A DNA stretch of 36,493 bases, taken from Dehalococcoidia bacterium (GTDB lineage: Bacteria; Chloroflexota; Dehalococcoidia; Lucifugimonadales; UBA3495). Below, piece by piece: positions 1,152 through 7,786 of the stretch; the stretch's first letter is position 1, and every line of letters begins with the position of its first letter. Under the pieces are notes generated by a model. It was not told the DNA's origin, ran no database searches, and saw nothing but the letters and a program-made list of their open reading frames with translations. The stretch covers positions 1 to 36,493 of the forward strand of contig SHYG01000016.1 of assembly GCA_009692925.1 (NCBI GenBank). The letters run 5' to 3'. The position numbers and the translations under genes are program-made.

Positions 1152-1436
1152 TTAGTCGTCCGCTGGGACAGGCACCATGCTATCCAGTTTAGCCTTGATG
1201 CGCTCCTTCATCTTGCGGACCCGGGCCAGGTCGGGGTAGATGCCGCCCTCACCCTTGCGGTCGAAGATGCGCTCGCCATCCAGGAACACTTCCATGATGC
1301 CCTGTCCGCGGGGAGAAATGGTGATGGCCGCATCGGGGCCGTAGGCTCGGAAGAACTCATTCGCCATCCACGTGGCGGTGGCATGATGCTGTCAAGGCAC
1401 GCAGTAGGTGATTTCGATCTGAACCTTTCCTTCCAT
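1152..1436 (-). CDS. SelW/SelT/SelH (Rdx) family selenoprotein; TGA at 1392-1394 read as selenocysteine
   Basis: Read from ATG 1436, the frame gives 94 residues beginning MEGKVQIEITYCVPU, where residue 15 is an in-frame TGA (1394-1392). This produces CxxU, the redox motif of the thioredoxin-like Rdx family (SelW, SelT, SelH), at the expected place: after the first beta strand and before helix 1 (TWMANEFFRAYG). The rest fits the family: an ITISP strand, the signature GIMEVFLDGERIF, and a tail ending near an IYPD motif. An AAGGAGG ribosome-binding site lies 6 bases before ATG 1436, while the internal ATG 1367 has none and would lack both redox residues. A TTGACT-16-TAGAAT promoter lies further upstream. 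Family members are small redox proteins; the substrate is unknown. The selenocysteine machinery (selA, selB, selC, selD) is not in the window. The alternative is a Cys-to-stop mutation or sequencing error (TGC/TGT to TGA). Confidence 0.85.
1365..1385 (-). promoter_or_regulatory. Candidate bacterial SECIS hairpin downstream of the UGA
   Basis: On the mRNA strand, CAT-(G)-CCAC (1385-1378) pairs with GTGG-ATG (1371-1365), giving 7 pairs with one bulged G around the hexaloop CGCCAC. The loop has G at its second position, as bacterial SECIS models expect. It begins 14 nt after the UGA, slightly nearer than the usual range. The hairpin is weak and was found by eye only. Confidence 0.35.
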
Positions 1437-1597: not shown

Positions 1598-1672
1598 CGC
1601 AAACCGGAATCCATCAGCGCATGCCAACCAGCAGGCATCTGGGCACCGGCCTTCGCCGGTGTGACGGCTAGA
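1598..1672. repeat. Dispersed intergenic repeat with perfect hairpin
   Basis: The segment contains CACCGGC (1644-1650), a CTTC loop and GCCGGTG (1655-1661), with CCGGAATCCATC to its left. On the opposite strand it would translate as the VTPAKAGAQ...MDSGLRR pattern, a signature of widespread intergenic repeats that are often miscalled as genes. I treat it as a repeat; the weak ORFs crossing it on both strands are not genes. Confidence 0.55.
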
Positions 1673-7288: not shown

Positions 7289-7786
7289 ATGGCTACTCAG
7301 CAGGCAATGCATGCCCAGATGGGCGGAGAGACTGGCGGCAAGGAAGAGCTGATCAAGGCAGGCGCGGTAACGTTTGGGGTGGAGTACCGCAAGAATGTCG
7401 GCGGCCGTGACCAGGGCGTGTGCATTCACGTCTATGGCAACGACATGCCCGGCGCCGACAAAGAGTTGCTGCGGTTGGATTGCTTCGACCTGAACCCCCA
7501 CTACCATTATCGCAACGCCACCATCAAGCAGAACATCCGGCTGGAGCTGGACTTCACCTCGGAAGGCCGGCCAATCCCCTGGGCGCTGGACAAGATCCGG
7601 AACCGGTTGCCCATGATGCTGGTCAAGTGCGGCGCTGAGGACATCGCCCGCAAGGTTGACCAGCGGGAGATTAACGCGGCGCTGCCCAAGATTATCGCGT
7701 GGGCCGAGACGCTGACCAACCAGGCCCGCGAGGAAAGCGCGCCTCCCAAGATGGAGCGAGCTGACCGCCCGATGCGGGCCCACTAG
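7289..7786 (+). CDS. Conserved-looking protein of unknown function, 165 aa
   Basis: I do not recognise the function. The protein is soluble, with no signal peptide or membrane segment. After a Gln/Met-rich start it has GAVTFGVEYRKN and GVCIHVYGND, a Cys/Asp/His-rich core LRLDCFDLNPHYHYR, LELDFTSEGRPIPWALDKI, and a helical C-terminus ending ADRPMRAH. The HYHY cluster with the Cys and Asp could bind a metal, but that is only a guess. ATG 7289 has GGAGG at 7275-7279 and again at 7281-7285. It lies divergent from the amino-acid dehydrogenase. Its TAG stop is the first triplet of a MITE (7784-7888); without the element the stop would be TAA at the same codon. Confidence 0.75.
   Translation: MATQQAMHAQMGGETGGKEELIKAGAVTFGVEYRKNVGGRDQGVCIHVYGNDMPGADKELLRLDCFDLNPHYHYRNATIKQNIRLELDFTSEGRPIPWALDKIRNRLPMMLVKCGAEDIARKVDQREINAALPKIIAWAETLTNQAREESAPPKMERADRPMRAH

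Follow-up and report, generated by a model that had tools for sequence, protein, structure and literature searches.

The minus strand of the window (the whole 36,493-nucleotide stretch of DNA analysed) very probably carries a gene for a SelW-like selenoprotein of the Rdx family, in which SECIS-directed selenocysteine (Sec) at residue 15 would form a redox site with Cys12. The gene (positions 1152–1436) has 94 codons followed by TAA. The frame running from ATG 1436 to TAA 1152 is interrupted solely by a TGA at 1394–1392, with a local reading of YCVPU; our re-reading of this frame agrees with the sequence-only reading, which had first proposed it. When the TGA is translated as Sec, a 94-residue product is obtained: MEGKVQIEITYCVPUQHHATATWMANEFFRAYGPDAAITISPRGQGIMEVFLDGERIFDRKGEGGIYPDLARVRKMKERIKAKLDSMVPVPADD. 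Under the standard code the sole remainder is a spurious 71-residue ORF from an internal ATG (1365–1367, Met24 of the long frame) that lacks the CxxU site, which is the product without an active site that a standard gene caller had been expected to report. Judged from the comparisons described below, the UGA in this small redox protein gene almost certainly encodes selenocysteine rather than a stop.

The read-through product was compared with the Rdx/SelW family, as had been suggested, and belongs to Pfam Rdx (PF10262; E = 5e-14, 52.7 bits against a cut-off of 22.6); the match covers residues 6–67 and spans the TGA. The redox motif C12-V-P-U15 follows the first strand, and Sec15 stands where Cys homologues have CxxC (residue 15 is Cys in homologues L095–L099). 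The solved bacterial SelW-family chains 2oka, 2obk, 2fa8, 2ojl and 2p0g match over almost the entire length (E = 1e-10 to 1e-8), and residue-by-residue alignments with 2oka and 2obk place Cys at the Sec position of the query. With U entered as C, the product scores 32.2 bits against the NCBIfam model TIGR02174 (CXXU_selWTH; SelT/SelW/SelH), for which the cut-off is 34.2. SelTWH_Campy (NF041051) gives the same superfamily match, and the query lies under both curated cut-offs, which points to a divergent subfamily.

The gene and its TGA are conserved in relatives. An Rdx match was found in 87 of 99 genomes (the host and its relatives), nearly all of the matches listed having exactly one TGA. Within the same family the protein was found in 49 of 50 genomes (host included), with TGA in every match listed; the one exception is 66% complete. 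Every one of 44 distinct orthologue sequences keeps the TGA, and 43 of them have a MEGK-type start. A separate scan recovered 43 loci titled as Chloroflexi, Dehalococcoidia or SAR202 metagenome-assembled genomes (MAGs), and the nearest named relatives are SAR202/Dehalococcoidia (Chloroflexota) MAGs; the lineage assignment of the host derives from these titles. Of the 43 loci, 37 have a convergent thymidylate kinase gene downstream, so the position of the selW-like gene is stable. The base preceding the Sec UGA (codon 14, window 1395–1397) is T in 43 of the 44 orthologues despite a switch between Pro (CCT) and Ser (AGT), and is possibly a decoding-context signal.

The flanking signals that had been cited for a start at ATG 1436 are both present on the minus strand: an AAGGAGG ribosome-binding site (1449–1443) six nucleotides before the ATG, and a σ70-like promoter, TTGACT-16-TAGAAT (1505–1478), with ten of 12 consensus matches, which is agreement with a consensus and not proof. 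One promoter-like site was found upstream of the gene, compared with 0.1 in shuffled sequences. A hairpin with a T-rich tail (1122–1095, minus strand; 11 pairs, eight of them G–C), which the sequence-only reading had not listed, resembles an intrinsic terminator; it closes the selW-like gene and shares sequence with the final codons of the thymidylate kinase gene. Also upstream, at window positions 1641–1661 (minus strand), is the palindromic repeat CACCGGCGAAGGCCGGTGCCC, which has seven copies in the genome at three or fewer mismatches (control 0) and is possibly a REP-like dispersed element. Elsewhere in the window, positions 7289–7786 (plus strand) encode a DUF7700 protein (PF24777, 6e-35).

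The best-surviving alternative, although very improbable, is that the TGA is a true stop, which would make the locus a pseudogene or truncated leader and the 71-residue ORF from ATG 1367 the real product. This ORF is indeed all that the standard code yields, but it lacks the redox motif of the family, and no AAGGAGG-type ribosome site lies upstream of ATG 1367, whereas ATG 1436 recurs in the orthologues with GGAGG-like sites in the relatives inspected. Moreover, conservation at the protein level extends over the 14 codons upstream of the TGA, and decay would not preserve both the TGA and open frames across dozens of genera.

The RNA downstream of the UGA is predicted to be a SECIS element of the bacterial type from a rule-fitting hairpin, the strongest synonymous conservation in the gene and one compensated pair. 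The core hairpin (1377–1362, minus strand; stem CGCCA/UGGCG, loop CGUGGA) occupies the same position in all 44 orthologues; in several more distant Sec members the stem is shifted (GGCC-UGGAU-GGCC). The published bSECIS model (PMC13188914) specifies a loop of 3–9 nt, a stem no shorter than 4 bp, a G at loop position 1 or 2, a distance of 16–37 nt from the UGA and an MFE of −7.5 or lower. Here the loop has 6 nt and the stem 5 bp, the second loop base is G and the third U, and the UGA-to-loop spacing is 19 nt; the energy falls below the limit for a 46-nt stretch only (MFE −12.8, with partly different pairing), the core hairpin alone giving −5.9. An equally good hairpin was retained in only 33 of 5000 synonymous recodings. 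Folding energy was rejected as stand-alone proof of a SECIS because 134 of the 877 TGA triplets in the window (15%) have an equally stable hairpin and the 46-nt fold does not stand out from dinucleotide shuffles (z = −1.2); synonymous-site constraint and changes in pairing were relied on in its place. The hairpin thus supports a SECIS but does not prove it.

Conservation of the hairpin region was observed directly. Third-base homozygosity is highest in codons 14, 19–22 and 25, which take the top six places among the 23 fourfold-degenerate sites (Mann–Whitney p = 0.0002 against the other 17); since all of these sites share one tree, relatedness alone does not explain the constraint on codons 14–25. 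Codons 21 and 22 are GCC and ACG, respectively, in all 44 orthologues, and codon 25 is GCG in 41 and GCA in three. The outermost pair of the stem, between the third bases of codons 20 and 25, changes with compensation: C–G, U–A, U–G and G–C were all found.

The host genome (91% complete; 2.07 Mb in 101 contigs) was searched for selA, selB, selC and selD, as had been proposed, and all four are present; the absence of selB, selC and selD that had been named as refuting evidence is therefore not observed. selB, found by profile search on contig C39 (333 bits; cut-off 242), is one open frame of 710 codons that matches TIGR00475 in both its GTPase and its C-terminal part; its true start is probably the internal MYVIGTSGHVDHGKS. 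The tRNA-Sec gene (contig C89, 66 bits) has the anticodon TCA, selA (contig C13, 554.7 bits) was identified from its profile match alone, and selD (contig C38, 399.3 bits) reads HCAGUAAKL with an in-frame TGA of its own. These genes are spread over four contigs, so one misbinned contig cannot explain them. Two more Rdx paralogues in Sec form were found at C15:7112–7357 (YCVPU) and C101:9810–10025 (YCQPU), with a hairpin downstream of each TGA. The use of Sec by this lineage, which the sequence-only reading had derived from the selW-like gene, therefore holds, although it follows not from that gene alone but from the machinery and the other redox genes with TGA.

Three AhpC-TSA/thioredoxin-like genes on contigs C93, C61 and C71 have TGA at UxxC motifs (GHWUSYC, YCUINC and SWUPTC; loci L118, L120 and L121, respectively) and are candidates for further selenoproteins of the same genome. 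No in-frame TGA was found among 20 matches to CMD/AhpD proteins. The host genome is predicted to contain at least seven selenoprotein genes.

Reassignment or suppression, with the UGA specifying Trp or Cys instead of Sec, would also account for an in-frame UGA that is read through, but the complete Sec system in the genome, the location of the in-frame TGAs found at redox positions that are Cys in homologues, and ordinary window genes that are open under table 11 leave it a smaller chance still than a true stop. Least credible of all is a sequencing or assembly error that changed a Cys codon (TGC or TGT) to TGA: the sequence comes from a MAG and Cys forms are known in the family, but independent genomes share the TGA, single-contig assemblies among them, and neither Cys codon, either of which had been named as refuting evidence, is found at the site matching 1394–1392 in any of the 44 orthologues, so that error is refuted at the family level.

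Natural contrasts bear on Sec decoding of the gene. Relative G077 (97% complete) has the Cys form YCVPC, with no tRNA-Sec above background and no selA over the cut-off. Relative G083 has selA and tRNA-Sec, yet only the Cys form among the matches listed; Cys replacement thus occurs without loss of the Sec trait. In 13 genomes with a TGA-containing Rdx gene no tRNA-Sec stood clearly above the tRNA background; nine of these have selA at more than 500 bits and the other four are 71–88% complete, and absent contigs or stricter filters are the likely cause. Co-occurrence of tRNA-Sec and TGA-containing Rdx genes, among relatives or across the phylum, is a limited test because nearly all of these genomes use Sec, and single contrasts such as G077 are more telling.

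For the insertion of Sec, the chemistry of the redox site and the function in the cell, we infer the following. SelB-GTP with Sec-tRNA-Sec would bind the SECIS hairpin just 3′ of the UGA, which would be decoded as selenocysteine at residue 15. In the small thioredoxin-like product the C12–U15 (CVPU) couple would cycle between selenolthiol and selenosulfide. The protein is probably a thiol or glutathione-linked oxidoreductase in this SAR202-type Chloroflexota bacterium; an interaction of SelW with glutathione is reported in PMC1088965.

PMC1088965, PMC1794560 and PMC2398784 describe SelW-like selenoproteins of marine and other bacteria as CxxU-containing Rdx proteins of about 90 residues with a bacterial-type SECIS by the UGA and few Cys forms in Sec-using bacteria. 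The same features are found here, and the comparison gave no mechanistic difference; what differs is the SAR202-type Chloroflexota lineage and the presence of three Sec paralogues in one genome. Among the known marine selenoproteins none are more abundant than the SelW-like CxxU proteins (PMC2398784, PMC1088965), and this makes a Sec form here less surprising. Sec use in Chloroflexi has already been reported, and a sponge-symbiont study found COGs for SelA and SelB throughout symbiont bins belonging to several phyla. Within partial literature coverage, no publication joining SAR202 with selenoproteins was found, and the marine metagenome survey passages on SelW-like selenoproteins mention neither Chloroflexi nor SAR202 among the hosts. 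The family itself is thus already known, and known to be common in the sea; of modest note here are the order-wide retention of Sec and the three Sec paralogues in a single genome.

For annotation, ordinary gene calling truncates the selW-like gene, and standard calling in the host genome would leave at least seven redox or selenium-metabolism proteins without their active sites. The analysis documents predicted Sec decoding in bacteria that are abundant and uncultured, and suggests them as a possible host lineage of the marine selenoprotein family with the highest abundance. Tentatively, and with the odds rather against it, SAR202-type Chloroflexota, which would keep as many as three Sec-SelW paralogues per genome throughout the order, may be a major source of the SelW-like selenoproteins prevailing in marine metagenomes.
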